Of a stretch of 41,643 bases of DNA, positions 3,820 through 41,410 are shown piece by piece (within the stretch, counting starts at the first letter, position 1; every line of letters starts with the position of its first letter). Origin of the DNA: a virus. The position numbers and the translations under genes are program-made. The stretch lies in the IMG/VR virus record IMGVR_UViG_3300004163_000005, positions 1-41,643 of that record. One strand, written 5' to 3'. The notes beneath the pieces are model-generated. The model was not told the DNA's origin. It did no database searches and was given only the letters and a program-made list of their open reading frames with translations.

Positions 3820-4232
3820 TACACATTACCCTCGGTAATAGACCCCGATAGAATCTGAATAGCCCCACCCATCTGCGCGGACAACGTGTTAAATATTAAC
3901 GCCGCGCCGCTGCCCTCGATGCCGCAGGACATATCCAACACAAATGCGTCATCGCCATCCACGCCTCGCGCCCAGGCAATCACACCGGTCGCGTCGGCCA
4001 AGTCGTCATCGTTAATGTCATCGAATACCAGCACACCATTTGACACTGTACCGCACGGGTCCGACAGCATACAGGTGCCGATCAGCGTTTGCGTAGTGAT
4101 AGCGGCGCCGGTGGCTGGCCGAGGTGCGGTGTATAGCAGGATTTTTCCGGGGGTTGCGCCGGCATCGAGCGCAGCGGCAATGCATTGCGCCCGACTGTTT
4201 CTCAATGCTGTTGAAAAAGCTAATGCGCTCAT
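3819..4232 (-). CDS. Phage tail-associated protein, function unknown
   Basis: This 137-residue protein is Ala/Gly/Thr-rich with no signal peptide or catalytic motif. It begins with ALRNSRAQCIAAALDAGATPGKILLYTAPRP, quoted here only as a landmark across residues 8-39, and looks like a small structural protein. A clear ribosome binding site (AAGAGGAG) precedes the ATG. It lies between the 1179-residue tail protein and the LamG protein in the distal-tail block, so a tail-tip role is inferred from context only. Confidence 0.7.
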   Translation of the reverse strand: MSALAFSTALRNSRAQCIAAALDAGATPGKILLYTAPRPATGAAITTQTLIGTCMLSDPCGTVSNGVLVFDDINDDDLADATGVIAWARGVDGDDAFVLDMSCGIEGSGAALIFNTLSAQMGGAIQILSGSITEGNV

Positions 4233-27824: not shown

Positions 27825-28048
27825 GCCGGACCGCCTTGATGACTGATCAGATCCAGCAGCTCCAAGGTATCGGCAAAGTATTGCGCATTATCCGACTCGC
27901 ACGATTGGTCCAGGTATTTCGATGCCCGACGCAAAGACTCCCGAACTCTCTCATCCAGTAATTTATGGTTCTCGGCCCTGGCGGCAATGGCGTCTTCCAG
28001 GCGGGCGTTATCTTTCTCCAGCAAGGCGATATATTTGGCGTGGTTCAT
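27821..28048 (-). CDS. Small coiled-coil protein
   Basis: This 75-residue protein (MNHAKYIALLEKDNARLEDA, ERVRESLRRASKYLDQSCES) is mostly coiled coil. The ATG at 28048 overlaps the antirepressor stop (ATGA); a longer in-frame start lies inside that gene. No family is recognised. Coupled translation with the Bro-N gene suggests both belong to one unit. Confidence 0.65.
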   Translation of the reverse strand: MNHAKYIALLEKDNARLEDAIAARAENHKLLDERVRESLRRASKYLDQSCESDNAQYFADTLELLDLISHQGGPA

Positions 28049-28602
28049 TGCGCACCGCCTTGTACGGGTAAGCGTGCGGCATCGGCGCAGATCACAAAAC
28101 CGCAGGCCCGCAGCCGTCCGGAATCCCGCCAAACTGTCGACGGGGCAATACGGAGCATGTCGGCAATGCGCGCCTGAGAATAACCGGCCCGGATTAAGCT
28201 CAGCACGTCGTTTAGGCGAGGGTTTGCATACAACACTTCGGCTTGCAAGGATTGCACTAAGCGTTTTGTTTCATCCGCAACACCGTAGCTGCCGGTTTTG
28301 CGGACGGAAGGAAGCACTTCGTCGCAGACCCAAGACTCGAACGGCTCCGATTCGGGTTTGTTGGATTTGATGATCAGGCGGTAGAGGTTGCCTTCGTCGA
28401 TCAGGGTGTAAGTGTTTGATAATCCTGGGACGTAGCTATTAGCTACACCGACAGATCTGCATGATTTTTTAACAGCGTCCCTAGAATTTGCGTAGCCTAA
28501 AATATCGCAAACGTCTTTGGCAATAAACCAAGGCTCGCCTTGTGCGCTAGGAATGACGCGGAATTGATGGGATTGAAACTGATAGGTTTGTAATGTGTTC
28601 AT
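28045..28602 (-). CDS. Bro-N domain antirepressor
   Basis: This 185-residue protein has an N-terminal Bro-N domain (residues about 1-110: EPWFIAKDVCDILGYANSRD, LIDEGNLYRLIIKSNKPES, FESWVCDEVLPSVRKTGSYG). A helix-turn-helix follows at about 140-175 (GYSQARIADMLRIAPSTVWR). Phages use Bro-N proteins as antirepressors that block prophage repressors. AAGGA lies 6 bases before the ATG, and a 10-bp hairpin stands just upstream. The gene has its own promoter-like sequence and a structured leader (28634-28862), recalling the c4-ant immunity loci of P1/P22-type phages. The target repressor is unknown and may be this phage's own. Confidence 0.9.
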   Translation of the reverse strand: MNTLQTYQFQSHQFRVIPSAQGEPWFIAKDVCDILGYANSRDAVKKSCRSVGVANSYVPGLSNTYTLIDEGNLYRLIIKSNKPESEPFESWVCDEVLPSVRKTGSYGVADETKRLVQSLQAEVLYANPRLNDVLSLIRAGYSQARIADMLRIAPSTVWRDSGRLRACGFVICADAARLPVQGGAQ

Positions 28603-28631
28603 GATTTTTCCTTGGATGGTAATTTCTAACG

Positions 28632-28657
28632 CCGCCAATGAGACCAATCATTGGCGG
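28632..28657 (-). other. Hairpin upstream of the antirepressor ribosome binding site
   Basis: On the minus strand CCGCCAATGA and TCATTGGCGG form a perfect 10-bp stem with loop TTGGTC. It ends about 18 bases before the AAGGA of the Bro-N gene. The loop word TTGGTC recurs upstream in the leader (ATTGGTCTC), so alternative pairing with the leader is possible. Confidence 0.65.
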
Positions 28658-28827
28658 TGAGCTGAACGGGGTTGGTCTACCAGTCCAAGGGCTGGCCGCC
28701 CCGAAGGGCGCCCCGCCCAGCCCACCATAAAGGAAACGCTGAACGTTGCGCATAAAAAAACCGCATGAAGCGGCGTTTCATACGCCCTGGAAACCGAGAG
28801 ACCAATCCCGTGCTGAGCAATGCCAGC
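28634..28827 (-). ncRNA. C4/Ash-like structured leader RNA upstream of the antirepressor
   Basis: On the minus strand the leader carries a short hairpin followed by T7 (CCGC-TTCAT-GCGG), then the phrase ATGCGCAACGTTCAGCG and TTTCCTTTATGGTGGGC, and a nested stem, GGGCTGGGC pairing with GCCAGCCC around CGCCC-TTCG-GGGCG. This arrangement resembles leaders annotated as c4 antisense RNA or ash-family regions upstream of phage antirepressors. A 68-codon ORF (28753-28547, start MRNVQRFLYGGLGG) overlaps the Bro-N start in another frame, like the orfx/ant arrangement in P1. The match is from memory; a covariance search would decide. Confidence 0.45.
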
Positions 28828-28833
28828 GCAATT

Positions 28834-28862
28834 AGATTAGCCCTCGGCTTTATTTTTGTCAA
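28834..28862 (-). promoter_or_regulatory. Sigma-70-type promoter for the antirepressor leader
   Basis: TTGACA (perfect -35, 28862-28857), a 17-bp spacer, and TAATCT (28839-28834). Transcription would begin near 28827 and run through the structured leader into the Bro-N gene. The -35 sits at the stop codon of the upstream moron. This would give the antirepressor an expression route independent of the early operon. Confidence 0.6.
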
Positions 28863-29446
28863 TTTTTACTACCGCAAAGCGTTGCCCACGATTTGCTCAT
28901 TTCTCCTTTAGCCATTTGGGATTCCAACACCTGAATGCTTCCCCCTGAAATAAACCTCTCAAATCCCGTATACCCACCAAAGCTATTTTTAGCATTGACA
29001 TAGCCACAAACAATTGGCGCTCCAATAAGGTTTGAAACAAAACTATTTTGAAATTTTGCGCTATCAGGATCTTTCAATGTGCTTTTGATTAAATTTTGCT
29101 GCCGGTCAATATAGTTTGCTTCTTTTACTTCAGGGCTAATAGGTTCGGGATCTTGCATCTGACAACGAATAAGAAATATCACCATGACTACCGTCACCAG
29201 TATCTCTAAACCCCCAGTATTGTTTTTGGGATCTTTAATAACCTTGGGCTTTGGCGCGGGCTTACTTTGAGCCTTGGTTTTTTGCTTGGGTTTCAATGCT
29301 AAGCGTTCCGCGCGAAGCTTAGCCAGCACCTCTGGATCGGTAGGCTTTTTTTTATAAGGCATTTTACAATTAGGGCATATCAATGAAGACATGCTTACAT
29401 CATTATCATCTATAAATCGCTCGTGTTGGCAGTTTTGGCAAATCAT
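28859..29446 (-). CDS. Zinc-ribbon membrane protein, probable moron
   Basis: This 195-residue protein starts at the ATG with a near-perfect GGAGGG site six bases upstream. Residues 3/6 and 24/27 form a zinc ribbon (CQNC, CPNC), followed by a Lys/Pro-rich linker, one membrane helix (about 79-95, LEILVTVVMVIFLI), and a C-terminal domain with RQQNLIKSTLKDPDSAKFQN and APIVCGYVNAKNSFGGYTGF. That C-terminal pattern occurs in many small bacterial proteins of unknown function. It looks richer in A/T than its neighbours and has no phage-assembly role, so lysogenic conversion is likely but unproven. Confidence 0.7.
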   Translation of the reverse strand: MICQNCQHERFIDDNDVSMSSLICPNCKMPYKKKPTDPEVLAKLRAERLALKPKQKTKAQSKPAPKPKVIKDPKNNTGGLEILVTVVMVIFLIRCQMQDPEPISPEVKEANYIDRQQNLIKSTLKDPDSAKFQNSFVSNLIGAPIVCGYVNAKNSFGGYTGFERFISGGSIQVLESQMAKGEMSKSWATLCGSKN

Positions 29447-29512
29447 TACATCCCTCCACATTACATAACAAAAAACGCTTATTCTACACTCTAGCCCTAC
29501 CGTCTGGAATAT

Positions 29513-36664: not shown

Positions 36665-38665
36665 TTATTCATTGCCGGCAGCCCGCTGGCCGTCGTCCAT
36701 AAATTTCTGCATTGTTTCCAAGTAGCTCAATTTCTCCGTTTGCCGGCTAAAATCCCCGCCATCAACGACAATCCGCTTTAATGGCTCGACCGTTTGAGCC
36801 GGCGTTAACTCCACGCGCTTTAACACCTCGCCGTCGATGACATGGCCGCGTTCGGCATTGGCGCGATCGATCTTTTCCTGGCCGCGCTTGATCATGCCGT
36901 CGATGCGTCCTTCTTTAAGGGCATCGATTTTCGATTCGGCAAAACCTTTAACCTTGTTGGCCTCGAACTCGGCAACACAAATGGCTCGGCCGTCCAGATC
37001 GCTGATCCAAACCTGGTTGGCATCGCTTAAGTCATACGCCAGCCGTACCTTGGTATTGGCCGGAAGCTCCGCCAGCGCCGGGTTAAAATAAATATTGTTG
37101 TTCCAGCGCACTTCGCCCCGAAATGGCGTCCGGATCACAAACGGCCGGTACAGCGTAAGCGTCTCGTCGTCCGTTAACGGACAATGCCAGCTCTGGTCGA
37201 AATTGGCTTGATAAGCCTCGGCCGGAGTTCTGCCGCCTAATTCACTGTGTTGATGCGCGTTGTTGTACCAGTCGATGCGCGCCTCGACTTGCACCATAAA
37301 ATGATTCCAAGCCGGTACAAAATCAGGCACATCGCCTTTGCTTTTAGCGCGGTTGATCGCTTGCGTGTTTCTGCGCAAGGTATCGCCATCCATGCCCGTG
37401 CCCTGGAAGGTCGGGAACGTTTTTGCCACGGCAATGGTGGTAATGTCCCAAAGCCCTTCAATGATGCCGCGCCCTTGCGGATTACCAGGGCGACCGGTTT
37501 CGTGCTCCACTCCCAGCCGAGCCAACATGCCGCCCACCGGGCAATCGATGATTTTGGCGGTTTGGCCGGAACCGTTATCGCTGTAATAAATCAGCGGCTT
37601 GCCGTGTTTGATCATGGCTTTGCCCAGCGCCTCGGAAACGGCAATCTGGTTTTCCGATAAGCTGAATGCCCGGCCCACAATGAACCGGCTGGCCGCGTCG
37701 ATAATGAACGTCACTTCCGGCGCGAACGGTTGACCATGATCGGGATGGCGCACCTTGGCTTTAAAGGTGTGGCCGTCGCCGACCCAGACTTCATTGCTCA
37801 TGCCGGACCAATCCCGGCGTGTAAACGGCCGCAACGCAGCCAGTTCCGAGCCGGTCGAACGCCCAATAGCCAGCACGACTTGAGGAATCTTTTTTTGCAG
37901 CCGGCAAATCACGTCGTAATCCGGGCACTTTTCGGTAAAGCCTTGCGCTTGCCAGGCCTTTTCAAAGTCGCGGTGCGCCTCGCGTAACGACGGCTTTTGC
38001 GGCTTGCGGTAAAAGCTCAAGAACAGTGCCAGCCACCATTTACCCCGCCAGTCTTCCTTTTGCCGAATGCCCGGCGCCAACTGCTTGCCTGAGCTTTTCT
38101 CCTGATTCCAGCGCTCCAGCGAGCGCCGTGAAACCAGTTCCCCGTCATTTCGCTTCACGCCCCGCGTTTCCCGAGCCAGTAGCATGCTATCCATTAGCTC
38201 GCTCTCCAATTCCCCGGCCGCTGCTTTTGCGATTAGATGATCGGCAGCCTTGCCAAAGCTCCAGCGCATTTGCAAGGCCATGACGCGCACGTTATGCACC
38301 AAGTGATGACGGGCCTCGTTAACCTTGCGTTGGCGTTCGGTTAGATTTTCCAGTGGCGTGACTGAGGCCGGTGCTAGGTGCTGCGCTTTTTCCTCAGCTG
38401 GAATTACTGCTGCAGGCTCGGTTTCGGCCGGTTTTTGTAGCGCTTGTAGAATGGTCGATGCGCGTCGATTGAGCATGGCTTCACGGATGGCTTTGGGTAG
38501 CGCCTTAATCAGAAACCACTTCTTTTTGTGCTTGCCACGGCTGTTTTCAAAGACGCATTGCCAATTCTCATTAATCGCCTGCCTCGTAACAGAGCTTTTA
38601 TGCTTGCAGATTACTACCGCGATCTCATCGGCATTGGCATACAGAGTTTTATCGATCTCACTCAT
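36665..38665 (-). CDS. A: MuA-like DDE transposase
   Basis: This 666-residue protein catalyses phage integration and replicative transposition. The N-terminus is a Mu-type winged DNA-binding domain (LYANADEIAVVICKHKSSVT, QCVFENSRGKHKKKWFLI). The catalytic core has the DDE triad D297 (VGDGHTF), D363 (YSDNGSGQ) and E403 (GRGIIEGLWD), and the C-terminal Mu transposase domain runs to about residue 560. The C-terminal tail (MIKRGQEKIDRANAERGHVI onward) probably contacts MuB. The gene overlaps the DUF5131 gene by 8 bases. Confidence 0.95.
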   Translation of the reverse strand: MSEIDKTLYANADEIAVVICKHKSSVTRQAINENWQCVFENSRGKHKKKWFLIKALPKAIREAMLNRRASTILQALQKPAETEPAAVIPAEEKAQHLAPASVTPLENLTERQRKVNEARHHLVHNVRVMALQMRWSFGKAADHLIAKAAAGELESELMDSMLLARETRGVKRNDGELVSRRSLERWNQEKSSGKQLAPGIRQKEDWRGKWWLALFLSFYRKPQKPSLREAHRDFEKAWQAQGFTEKCPDYDVICRLQKKIPQVVLAIGRSTGSELAALRPFTRRDWSGMSNEVWVGDGHTFKAKVRHPDHGQPFAPEVTFIIDAASRFIVGRAFSLSENQIAVSEALGKAMIKHGKPLIYYSDNGSGQTAKIIDCPVGGMLARLGVEHETGRPGNPQGRGIIEGLWDITTIAVAKTFPTFQGTGMDGDTLRRNTQAINRAKSKGDVPDFVPAWNHFMVQVEARIDWYNNAHQHSELGGRTPAEAYQANFDQSWHCPLTDDETLTLYRPFVIRTPFRGEVRWNNNIYFNPALAELPANTKVRLAYDLSDANQVWISDLDGRAICVAEFEANKVKGFAESKIDALKEGRIDGMIKRGQEKIDRANAERGHVIDGEVLKRVELTPAQTVEPLKRIVVDGGDFSRQTEKLSYLETMQKFMDDGQRAAGNE

Positions 38666-39506
38666 GCTTTACACCCGGATAACCGTTATATTCAACACCA
38701 TCTATCAGGCGTCCGGACTGCTTTTTCCCAACTCTACATACAGATGTATCAGGGTCAAAGTTATGCCATATCTTTCCCTTAACACCCGGCTCATTGCATC
38801 GAAGCTCATGTACTGGCGCCCACTCACCCCATTGCTTGAACAAAAATGGAACTTCGGCGGCAATGCATTGATCGCGCAACGATCTAACCCAGTCTGGATG
38901 CATCGGTCTCGCATTAGGTCCGGACTCGCCACCGACAACCACCCAGTCAAGTCCGTTCGGAATATGACCACTGCGAATGTCAACCTTACCAAGCAGCGGC
39001 TCAGCGCTAATCCAATGCACAGCAGCAGGCGCAGACAGCAGTAGCGGTATGCGCTCGCTGGCGGTTTTTTGATCTTCAACCGATACACCAAGCCAAACAT
39101 TAGGCATTAATTCAGCAAAACCTTCCTTTGCCTCATCACCCCAATAATCAAAAAACTCAAGCACTCTTGCAGGGCGCTTTGTCAACACTTGGTAAATATG
39201 TCGCGGAGCCTGTTGCATACTCACCATCACTCGATGAATAAAATCAAACGGCACCGATTCATGAAACAAGTCAGACATTGAGTTAACGAATATCAGTCGA
39301 GGCTTTTGCCAGCGCAATGGAATTTCAAGCCTGTCATAATGCCAGCGAACATCGGTAAATTTACGCCCGACGTAGGCCGGAACCTTTGCCATTCTCGGCC
39401 AGTCGCGTTCGGCGTAACAATATTTGCAGCCTTGAGACATCTTGCTACAGCCAGTTACCGGGTTCCATGTGGCGTCAGCCCATTCGATGTTTGTTTTAGC
39501 GCTCAT
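38658..39506 (-). CDS. DUF5131 (phage Gp37/Gp68) family protein
   Basis: This 282-residue protein has the family signature NIEWADATWNPVTGCSKMSQ with CKYCYAERDWPRM; the cysteines at 20, 27 and 30 form the three-Cys motif. This motif recalls the iron-sulfur region of radical-SAM enzymes, though no reaction is established. Later blocks are RPARVLEFFDYW, NVWLGVSVEDQ, WISAEPLLGKVD and WVVVGGESGPNARPMHPDWV, all typical of the family. The start overlaps the upstream stop (ATGA); a longer in-frame start to 39596 lies inside that gene. Such a gene between ner and A is not part of the Mu core. Confidence 0.92.
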   Translation of the reverse strand: MSAKTNIEWADATWNPVTGCSKMSQGCKYCYAERDWPRMAKVPAYVGRKFTDVRWHYDRLEIPLRWQKPRLIFVNSMSDLFHESVPFDFIHRVMVSMQQAPRHIYQVLTKRPARVLEFFDYWGDEAKEGFAELMPNVWLGVSVEDQKTASERIPLLLSAPAAVHWISAEPLLGKVDIRSGHIPNGLDWVVVGGESGPNARPMHPDWVRSLRDQCIAAEVPFLFKQWGEWAPVHELRCNEPGVKGKIWHNFDPDTSVCRVGKKQSGRLIDGVEYNGYPGVKHE

Positions 39507-39946
39507 TTTCCACCACTCATAGCTTGCTTGATTGCTTTCTCTTGCAGGCGCAATTGATTCTTCAATGCTTCCAACTTGCCCAGTTGCGCCTCCCAAACCT
39601 CTTTGCCTACACTCAATTTTGCACCGCGTAAATCGGCAATCCAGGCGGTAATATCGTGTGTCTCTAATGCCACTTCCAACGCCGGCAAATACTCCAGCGG
39701 AAAACGCCAGCCTTCACGGCTTTCCGCTGTCCAGCTATCCAATTGGTGCTTGGTAATCTCGTGACCGACCAACTCGCTCATCTTGGCTGCGATCTGGTAA
39801 CGGCTTAGCGGCGACAGCTTGATTAGCTCGCTCAGTAAACTCCGCAGCTGCGCACCAATATCTAATGATCCCGGCTTACCGCCGCGTTCGACCGGCACAA
39901 CTACCATGTCAAATAAATCGACTGTCAATGGATCACGCGCCTTCAT
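39503..39946 (-). CDS. Ner-adjacent DNA-binding-like protein
   Basis: This 147-residue protein (PLTVDLFDMVVVPVERGGKP, LSRYQIAAKMSELVGHEITK, HQLDSWTAESREGWRFPLEY) matches a family found immediately after ner in many Mu-like prophages. The phrase YQIAAKMSELVGHEITKHQL reads as a helix-turn-helix. The ATG at 39946 overlaps Ner by 14 bases; a GTG two codons upstream is possible. Its role is unknown, perhaps early transcription control. Confidence 0.75.
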   Translation of the reverse strand: MKARDPLTVDLFDMVVVPVERGGKPGSLDIGAQLRSLLSELIKLSPLSRYQIAAKMSELVGHEITKHQLDSWTAESREGWRFPLEYLPALEVALETHDITAWIADLRGAKLSVGKEVWEAQLGKLEALKNQLRLQEKAIKQAMSGGK

Positions 39947-40415: not shown

Positions 40416-40511
40416 ATGAAATTAAAACTAAATCAATTGCTTAGGATTGATGCGCGCGCATCAATTAAAATCAGCGCCTTGCATCAATTCCACCAAGGAA
40501 TTGATGCATGA
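40416..40511 (+). CDS. 31-residue leader ORF upstream of the repressor
   Basis: An ATG with GGAG five bases upstream (40407-40410) opens 31 codons (MKLKLNQLLRIDARASIKIS... to GIDA). The TGA overlaps the repressor ATG (ATGA at 40508-40511). The ORF runs through both palindromic operators, so its sequence is largely dictated by them. Translational coupling to the repressor or attenuation of its translation is likely. It could also be an incidental ORF, but the Shine-Dalgarno and overlap argue otherwise. Confidence 0.5.
   Translation: MKLKLNQLLRIDARASIKISALHQFHQGIDA
40446..40465. promoter_or_regulatory. 20-bp perfect palindrome, repressor operator candidate
   Basis: ATTGATGCGCGCGCATCAAT is fully self-complementary and built from two inverted copies of the half-site GCATCAAT. 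It lies upstream of the repressor gene inside the leader ORF. It is most likely an operator for the S24-type repressor. Confidence 0.65.
40480..40508. promoter_or_regulatory. Inverted repeat over the repressor ribosome binding site
   Basis: TGCATCAATTCC (40480-40491) and GGAATTGATGCA (40497-40508) are perfect 12-bp arms around ACCAA. The right arm contains most of the AAGGA site (40495-40499) and ends on the A of the repressor ATG. As DNA it is an operator pair; as RNA it would form a stem that hides the ribosome binding site. Confidence 0.65.
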
Positions 40512-41410
40512 CAATTGGAACCAGATTAAAGGAATGGAGGGCCTCAAAAGACCTAAGTCAAAAGGACGCAAGCTCCATTTCTGGAGTATCGTTTAGCACA
40601 TACCAAAATTATGAAATGGATATAAGTCCTCCAGGAGCTAAATCACTAACAGGTTTTATTAACGCTGGAATTAATGCCAATTGGTTAATGACTGGCGAAG
40701 GGCCGATGCTACTGGAAGATGCCGTGCAGCTGCCGCCCGGCCTGAGAATCAAGATAGACAACATAAAAGCTGAAGGCGGTGATCAAGAAGCGGCGGCTCG
40801 CCGACAAGCGGATACGCTTCAGCTTTGCGCCGAATTTAAAGAAGCGCAAAGCCTCATTACAACAATAACCAATGAAATAGGCGTTGCTCTACCTAAAAAA
40901 ACATTCGAAAGCTTTATGGAGCTGTTATGGCTTAGTGCGGGCGAGAAAAGCGATTTGGTAAAATCAGCTGTTGCGGAACTGTCAACATATATAGATCAAC
41001 TGGCTCTGGTGCCGTTTTATGATGTAGAAGCCTCGGCCGGTCATGGTTCACTGGTTGATCAAGAGCAGCAAATCAGCCAAATGGCCTTTAGAAAGGATTG
41101 GTTAAAACAAAAAGGCCTGCAATCCAATAAATGCGCGCTAATCAAGGCCAAAGGTGACAGTATGGAGCCCACTATCTATGATGGCGACTTGCTGTTGGTG
41201 GACGTCAGCATTGACAGCATTAAAGATGACTCGATTTATATAATACAAGCCGATCATCATCTTAGCGTCAAACGCATACAGCAAGACTTTGACGGCTCAC
41301 TGATAGTTATCAGTGATAATCCGCGTTATGAAAAGCGTATAATCAGCTCAGTGCAAGCAAAAGAGGTAAAAATTGCGGGGCGCGTAAGGTGGTACGGCCA
41401 TGAAATATAA
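40508..41410 (+). CDS. S24/LexA-like phage repressor
   Basis: This 300-residue protein maintains lysogeny. The N-terminal helix-turn-helix spans about residues 5-60 (RLKEWRASKDLSQKDASSIS). The C-terminal S24 peptidase domain has the catalytic Ser218 (KAKGDSMEPTIYDGD) and Lys255 (HHLSVKRIQ). An Ala177-Gly178 pair (DVEASAGHGS) is a candidate self-cleavage site, so induction by RecA and DNA damage is likely. This differs from the Mu c repressor, which is not a LexA-type protease. AAGGA at 40495-40499 is the ribosome binding site. Confidence 0.92.
   Translation: MTIGTRLKEWRASKDLSQKDASSISGVSFSTYQNYEMDISPPGAKSLTGFINAGINANWLMTGEGPMLLEDAVQLPPGLRIKIDNIKAEGGDQEAAARRQADTLQLCAEFKEAQSLITTITNEIGVALPKKTFESFMELLWLSAGEKSDLVKSAVAELSTYIDQLALVPFYDVEASAGHGSLVDQEQQISQMAFRKDWLKQKGLQSNKCALIKAKGDSMEPTIYDGDLLLVDVSIDSIKDDSIYIIQADHHLSVKRIQQDFDGSLIVISDNPRYEKRIISSVQAKEVKIAGRVRWYGHEI

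Follow-up and report, generated by a model that had tools for sequence, protein, structure and literature searches.

Our analysis of a 260-nt minus-strand leader, which follows the stop codon of ORF 28859-29461 and precedes a Bro-N antirepressor gene (start codon at 28602), indicated that the locus is very probably a P1-type immunity switch in which a C4 antisense RNA controls the antirepressor. The leader lies in IMG/VR record IMGVR_UViG_3300004163_000005, a virus record that was analysed over positions 1-41,643 (the whole stretch is referred to here as the window). This is a known type of switch but in an unusual host, a Mu-like phage. The more novel point of our analysis is that another RNA, sRNA-Xcc1, follows the same two-address scheme.

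The central part of the leader (28650-28732, minus strand) matched the Rfam C4 family (RF01695) over the full length of the model (1-87), with 72.3 bits and an E value of 2.5e-12 against a gathering cut-off of 45 bits. This was the only above-threshold Rfam match in the window, and P1's own C4 obtained 68.8 bits in the same search. The original prediction, made from the letters alone, had read the locus as a c4-controlled ant region and named the Rfam C4 covariance model as its check; the score lies well above threshold, and the long nested stem with a TTCG loop that had been described is the C4 RNA (28732-28650). Stem P1 of C4 is intact, and the fold z-scores were -3.55 for the C4 segment and -5.24 for the whole leader. 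Specifically, a GGT at 28726 aligns with the 5' end of c4 in P1, 6 nt inside the Rfam match, and by this analogy an RNase P-type 5' end is predicted for C4 at that position.

The two antisense addresses of C4 each have two complementary sites on the same strand of the leader, one upstream and one at the gene start. The a' address, AGACCAA (28672-28678), lies in the single-stranded C4 junction, and its exact complement TTGGTCT is found as a1 (28799-28805) and again as a2 (28641-28647). The latter sits in the loop of a 10-bp hairpin (28632-28657) which had been noticed next to the ribosome-binding site and which proved to be real. The b' address, CCTTGGA (28684-28690), lies in the loop of C4 hairpin P3 and is antisense to the ribosome-binding site of Bro-N, which is b2 (TCCAAGG, 28610-28616); it also pairs, with one G-U, with b1 (TCCAGGG, 28785-28791) after a 7-nt gap from a1. 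The a1-b1 / C4 / a2-b2 anatomy of P1 is complete, in agreement with the c4-controlled reading. The core of a1 and a2, GATTGGTCTC, occurs exactly twice on both strands of the 41,643 bases (0.05 copies expected). The predicted duplex energy of the C4 segment was -36.5 kcal/mol with the upstream a1b1 region and -25.4 kcal/mol with the a2b2 region. A few off-site duplexes in the window reached approximately -35 kcal/mol, and these were rejected as other C4 targets, with a1 and a2 being the sole occurrences of the 10-nt a-site core. In the predicted C4 fold the unpaired probability of a' was 0.998, while b' was only about half unpaired, which counts against the switch reading.

Upstream of these sites lies a candidate promoter (28834-28862, minus strand) composed of a -35 TTGACA (28862-28857), a spacer of 17 nt and a -10 TAATCT (28839-28834), with the TGA stop of ORF 28859-29461 falling within TTGACA. 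The -10 box is weak (3 of 6), and a generic promoter scan gave no promoter at the site. Since generic promoter and terminator scans were uninformative at this locus, we used positional conservation in their place. In 41 of 43 C4 loci a promoter precedes a1 by 28-34 nt, and this conserved distance is stronger evidence for a promoter than the generic scan. Together with the uniqueness of the TTGACA-17 nt-TAATCT pair in the window (0.01 expected), it upholds the promoter that had been proposed. Transcription is predicted to start near 28827, the position where an isrK-like match begins. This leader segment (28754-28827, minus strand) comprises a 5' hairpin, a1, b1 and a terminator-like hairpin, and it scored 26.9 bits with isrK (RF01394), under the cut-off of 50 bits for that model but at the right position; relatives attain the cut-off at the corresponding place. 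A short terminated RNA is predicted from 28827-28754. The hairpin with its run of seven T residues (28754-28784, minus strand), which resembles an intrinsic terminator and lies between b1 and C4, was present as originally described. Terminator-like sites taken alone were near chance (6 found versus 3.3 +/- 1.9 expected), and the position and T-run of this hairpin are conserved in relatives. The c4-a1b1 model (RF03163), which represents the a1/b1 targets of C4, gave no match at the site, although a1 and b1 of this locus pair with a' and b'; the model does match relatives. Like the sub-threshold isrK score, this negative result counts against the switch reading. At E<=10 it returned just a 12-nt chance match elsewhere in the window, and every control genome also gave matches.

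The gene downstream (28045-28602, minus strand) encodes a protein of 185 aa with a Bro-N domain (PF02498, 2.8e-20) and a C-terminal helix-turn-helix (HTH_23, weak at 4.3e-4), and it matched the PHROG anti-repressor Ant with 5.7e-39. Its reading frame is intact and its ATG (28602) lies 7 nt downstream of b2, and C4 and Bro-N probably share a single transcript. No icd-type gene intervenes between b2 and the antirepressor; therefore, the antirepressor itself would be the direct target of C4, and Bro-N relatives usually show this direct arrangement as well. The presumed target of the antirepressor is the candidate main repressor (40508-41410, plus strand), a protein with a helix-turn-helix and an S24 peptidase domain, which gave no match when compared with solved structures. 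Its ASA|G cleavage motif and its GDSM and VKR residues are kept, and by analogy with the LexA/S24 family they are probably functional. A palindromic repeat, ATTGATGC, is present in four copies at 40446-40507, flanked by the Ner-like gene and the S24 repressor gene, laid out as one perfect 20-bp palindrome and one spaced inverted pair, and it is likely the operator of the main repressor. We looked for the same repeat as a main-repressor operator at the C4 promoter and rejected this possibility, as ATTGATGC is absent near 28.6-28.9 kb. The C4 promoter thus does not look repressed by the main repressor, which fits production of C4 in the lysogen.

To compare the addresses across viruses, we gathered C4 loci via Bro-N relatives and a DNA pattern, confirmed them with a purpose-built covariance model, and kept 44 loci with distinct antisense segments. 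Complements (6-mers) of the locus's own addresses were detected at a1 in 43/44 loci, at a2 in 38/44 and at b2 in 35/44, compared with non-cognate matches of 8%, 6% and 3%, respectively. None of 5000 permutations reached the observed counts, which should not be read as a strict probability because the loci are related. These address-level k-mer tests were used instead of whole-segment duplex energies (cognate versus non-cognate), which are diluted by the conserved P3 stem. The 44 loci used 24 different a' addresses and had 43 different loops, with a' diversity being lower in the subset retrieved by the DNA pattern, since the pattern fixed part of a' (CCAACCCC). The a2 site lies in a hairpin loop in all 38 loci where it was detected. 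Among 36 genes that follow C4, the families recognised were of antirepressor type, namely Bro-N (17), pRha (3), P22_AR_N (2), KilA-N (1) and ORF6N (1).

In the switch that we propose, a single promoter near 28850 would give rise to a leader with a1-b1, the terminator, C4 and a2-b2, followed by the Bro-N antirepressor. Most transcripts would end at the T-run or be cut, releasing C4 with a 5' end near 28726. C4 would then act in trans on the antirepressor mRNA, where the junction address a' would kiss the a2 loop and the P3 loop b' would cover the ribosome-binding site b2, so that no antirepressor would be made and the prophage would stay silent. The RNase P processing, the trans action of C4 and the ribosome-binding-site block are all suggested by analogy with P1 and P7 (PMC5320573, PMC12197685, PMC8546580). 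If C4 were titrated, either by the terminated a1-b1 RNA or by incoming phage DNA with transcripts outnumbering C4, the antirepressor would be made and the main repressor relieved. Titration by the terminated a1-b1 RNA may take place as in Gifsy-1 (PMC4825925), and it fits the observation that a1b1 pairs more strongly with C4 than a2b2 does in 35/44 loci. Acting on the 40508 repressor, the antirepressor would provide, in addition to SOS cleavage, a second route to induction. A second immunity circuit alongside the main S24 repressor, as had been suggested, is a well-supported inference.

It is also conceivable that C4 acts through a leader peptide. An ORF on the minus strand (28547-28753) overlaps both C4 and the Bro-N start, and C4 could block its translation, with the antirepressor following by coupling or Rho-dependent polarity. 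There are precedents for such a route, as icd lies between b2 and ant1 in P1 and has been proposed to exert this kind of control, and Gifsy-1 uses orf45 coupling (PMC4825925). The original prediction was correct about the presence of the leader ORF and its overlap with the Bro-N start. Its position, frame and length, however, vary across the 44 loci, where it stops after 3-12 codons in many cases, and it had no match in Pfam at E<=1, Ash family included. Based on the early stops in relatives and the lack of a Pfam match, we regard the ORF as probably incidental, and its reading as an equivalent of icd, orf45 or Ash was ruled out. Moreover, the ORF traverses C4, and its start, being upstream of a2/b2, would remain uncovered when C4 occupies these two sites, and the location of b2 just before the Bro-N ATG points to a direct block of the ribosome-binding site. 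We therefore consider a leader-peptide route to be highly unlikely. In Hafnia phage yong2 (L197:1224-1907), a CDS annotated as 'Ash family protein' spans a C4 match of 77.3 bits, and some Ash annotations may be reading frames through C4.

Two further readings concern what C4 does rather than how. C4 could primarily serve in trans, by silencing same-address antirepressors of superinfecting or co-resident phages, with the antirepressor hitting the repressors of other prophages. C4 is indeed trans-acting and sets heteroimmunity in P1/P7 (PMC12197685, PMC5320573), genomes carry up to 16 C4 copies, and the AGACCAA address of our locus is common to loci L008 and L070. Yet C4 finds its best targets within the window in a1 and a2 of its own locus, and covariation with the own leader was found in nearly every locus; such a role, which we hold to be rather unlikely as an alternative, supplements self-regulation and does not replace it. 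The Pseudomonas genomes of L004, L005 and L008 contained 9-16 C4 matches each. As for a decayed relic, i.e., a C4-like sequence without function, the weak -10 box would be consistent with it, but the six pairing sites, stem P1 and the Bro-N frame are all intact and the promoter lies at its conserved place, which makes decay very improbable. The P1-type switch acting on its own antirepressor is the reading that we retain.

When compared with known systems, the locus recalls immI of P1 and P7 (c4-icd-ant1/ant2), with which it shares the C4 fold, the a1-b1-c4-a2-b2 order, the downstream antirepressor, the 7-nt a1-b1 gap, GGT at the predicted 5' end and a b2 site adjoining the start of the first gene. 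The P1 record is annotated in the order a1, b1, c4, a2, b2, icd, ant1, and its sites read TTGACAG for both a1 and a2, and GTTAGTGC/GTTAGTGA for b1/b2. Our locus differs from P1/P7 in its lack of icd, with Bro-N starting 7 nt past b2, in its other a and b addresses and in its Mu-like genome. It also differs in that the P1 promoter has the C1 operator Oc4, whereas no operator-like main-repressor repeat was found at the promoter here. In the isrK-STnc1160-orf45-anrP region of Gifsy-1, a short terminated leader RNA comes first, then a processed RNA and then an antirepressor (PMC4825925). The same succession is predicted at our locus, with the sub-threshold isrK match, but no orf45 is recognisable. 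The likeness to P22-type phages that had been drawn did not hold: P22 gave no C4 match and was rejected as a C4 phage, and its antirepressor is held by sar RNA (PMC12197685).

Loci with the same promoter-to-ATG leader and covarying addresses were found in gammaproteobacterial Bro-N prophages (L018, L020, L022, L030, L045 and others). These differ from our Mu-like virus in that, of 40 C4-bearing viral records, MuA was matched by one, and weakly. That record (L019:3771-4893) has two isrK-C4 units ~950 nt apart, the first preceding a Bro-N gene. The Mu-like setting that had been noted is well marked in the window by MuA (PHROG match, 6.3e-133), a Mor-type activator, a Ner-like HTH protein, a lysozyme and a divergent HTH-S24 repressor. 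Its closest MuA relatives share just ~35% identity, and our search for relatives via the Mor-like protein found none. C4 was not found in six reference Mu-like phages (Mu, D3112, SuMu, 3927AP2, Kp4866-3 and VW-6B). In the window, the Ner-like gene and MuA are separated by a gene for a DUF5131 protein (38658-39596; PF07505, 2.8e-93), and an extra gene at this position of a Mu-like early operon is unusual.

In several Bro-N loci, C4 is replaced at the same position by sRNA-Xcc1 (RF02221), which Rfam assigns to no clan and which is absent from the window. sRNA-Xcc1 has been described as an integron-borne, virulence-regulated RNA, which in Xanthomonas cassettes lies upstream of symE (PMC2996969, PMC12444791, PMC12189769). 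We detected it before antirepressor genes at L003:3855-3939, L004:3855-3939, L042:3847-3931, L132-L186 and L200:1201-1285. Like C4, it has a three-way junction, a b' loop, a junction a', a1/b1 upstream and a2/b2 at the antirepressor start; unlike C4, it has another P2 arm and another consensus. A search pattern based on the P2 arm, which did not include the pairing sites, returned 55 viral loci, giving 47 distinct loci with L003 and L004 added. Cognate 6-mer complements were present for a1 in 44/47, a2 in 42/47, b1 in 43/47 and b2 in 41/47, compared with 1-5% for non-cognate pairs, and 0/5000 permutations reached these counts. The loci carry about 15-22 different a' addresses. The gene after sRNA-Xcc1 (40 tested) was mostly of an antirepressor type (Rha, Bro-N, P22_AR_N, ORF6C or KilA-N), and in Bordetella phage vB_BaM-IFTN1 it is annotated as an antirepressor. 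The same code was seen independently in the vB_BaM-IFTN1 record, an Aeromonas record and an Escherichia phage. In an Azomonas prophage (L003), isrK at 1273, C4 at 1354 and 2418 and sRNA-Xcc1 at 3855 were detected, so that two C4 loci and an sRNA-Xcc1 locus follow one another within ~2.7 kb as three tandem immunity cassettes.

Judging from these sequence comparisons, it is likely that C4 and sRNA-Xcc1 belong as two branches to a broader class of two-address antisense RNAs of phages, in which sRNA-Xcc1 would be an immunity RNA silencing the downstream antirepressor, and in which each branch would have many mutually exclusive a/b addresses as a pairing code for heteroimmunity. Shared ancestry of the two RNAs is possible, and our purpose-built C4 model scored two sRNA-Xcc1 copies at 20.1 bits. 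We found no paper linking sRNA-Xcc1 to a C4-type design in a literature that did not include the 2011 sRNA-Xcc1 paper or a 2017 paper reportedly describing c4-2.

Our results suggest that a complete C4-antirepressor switch can reside in a Mu-like phage, in a compact form without icd. They also make the C4 address code explicit, nearly all of the a' addresses being exactly matched by their own targets, so that immunity groups would be predictable from sequence and testable by 7-nucleotide swaps. sRNA-Xcc1, so far discussed for virulence and integron cassettes, would be reassigned to phage immunity control, which gives it an immediately testable function and calls for caution against taking its copy number as a virulence trait.
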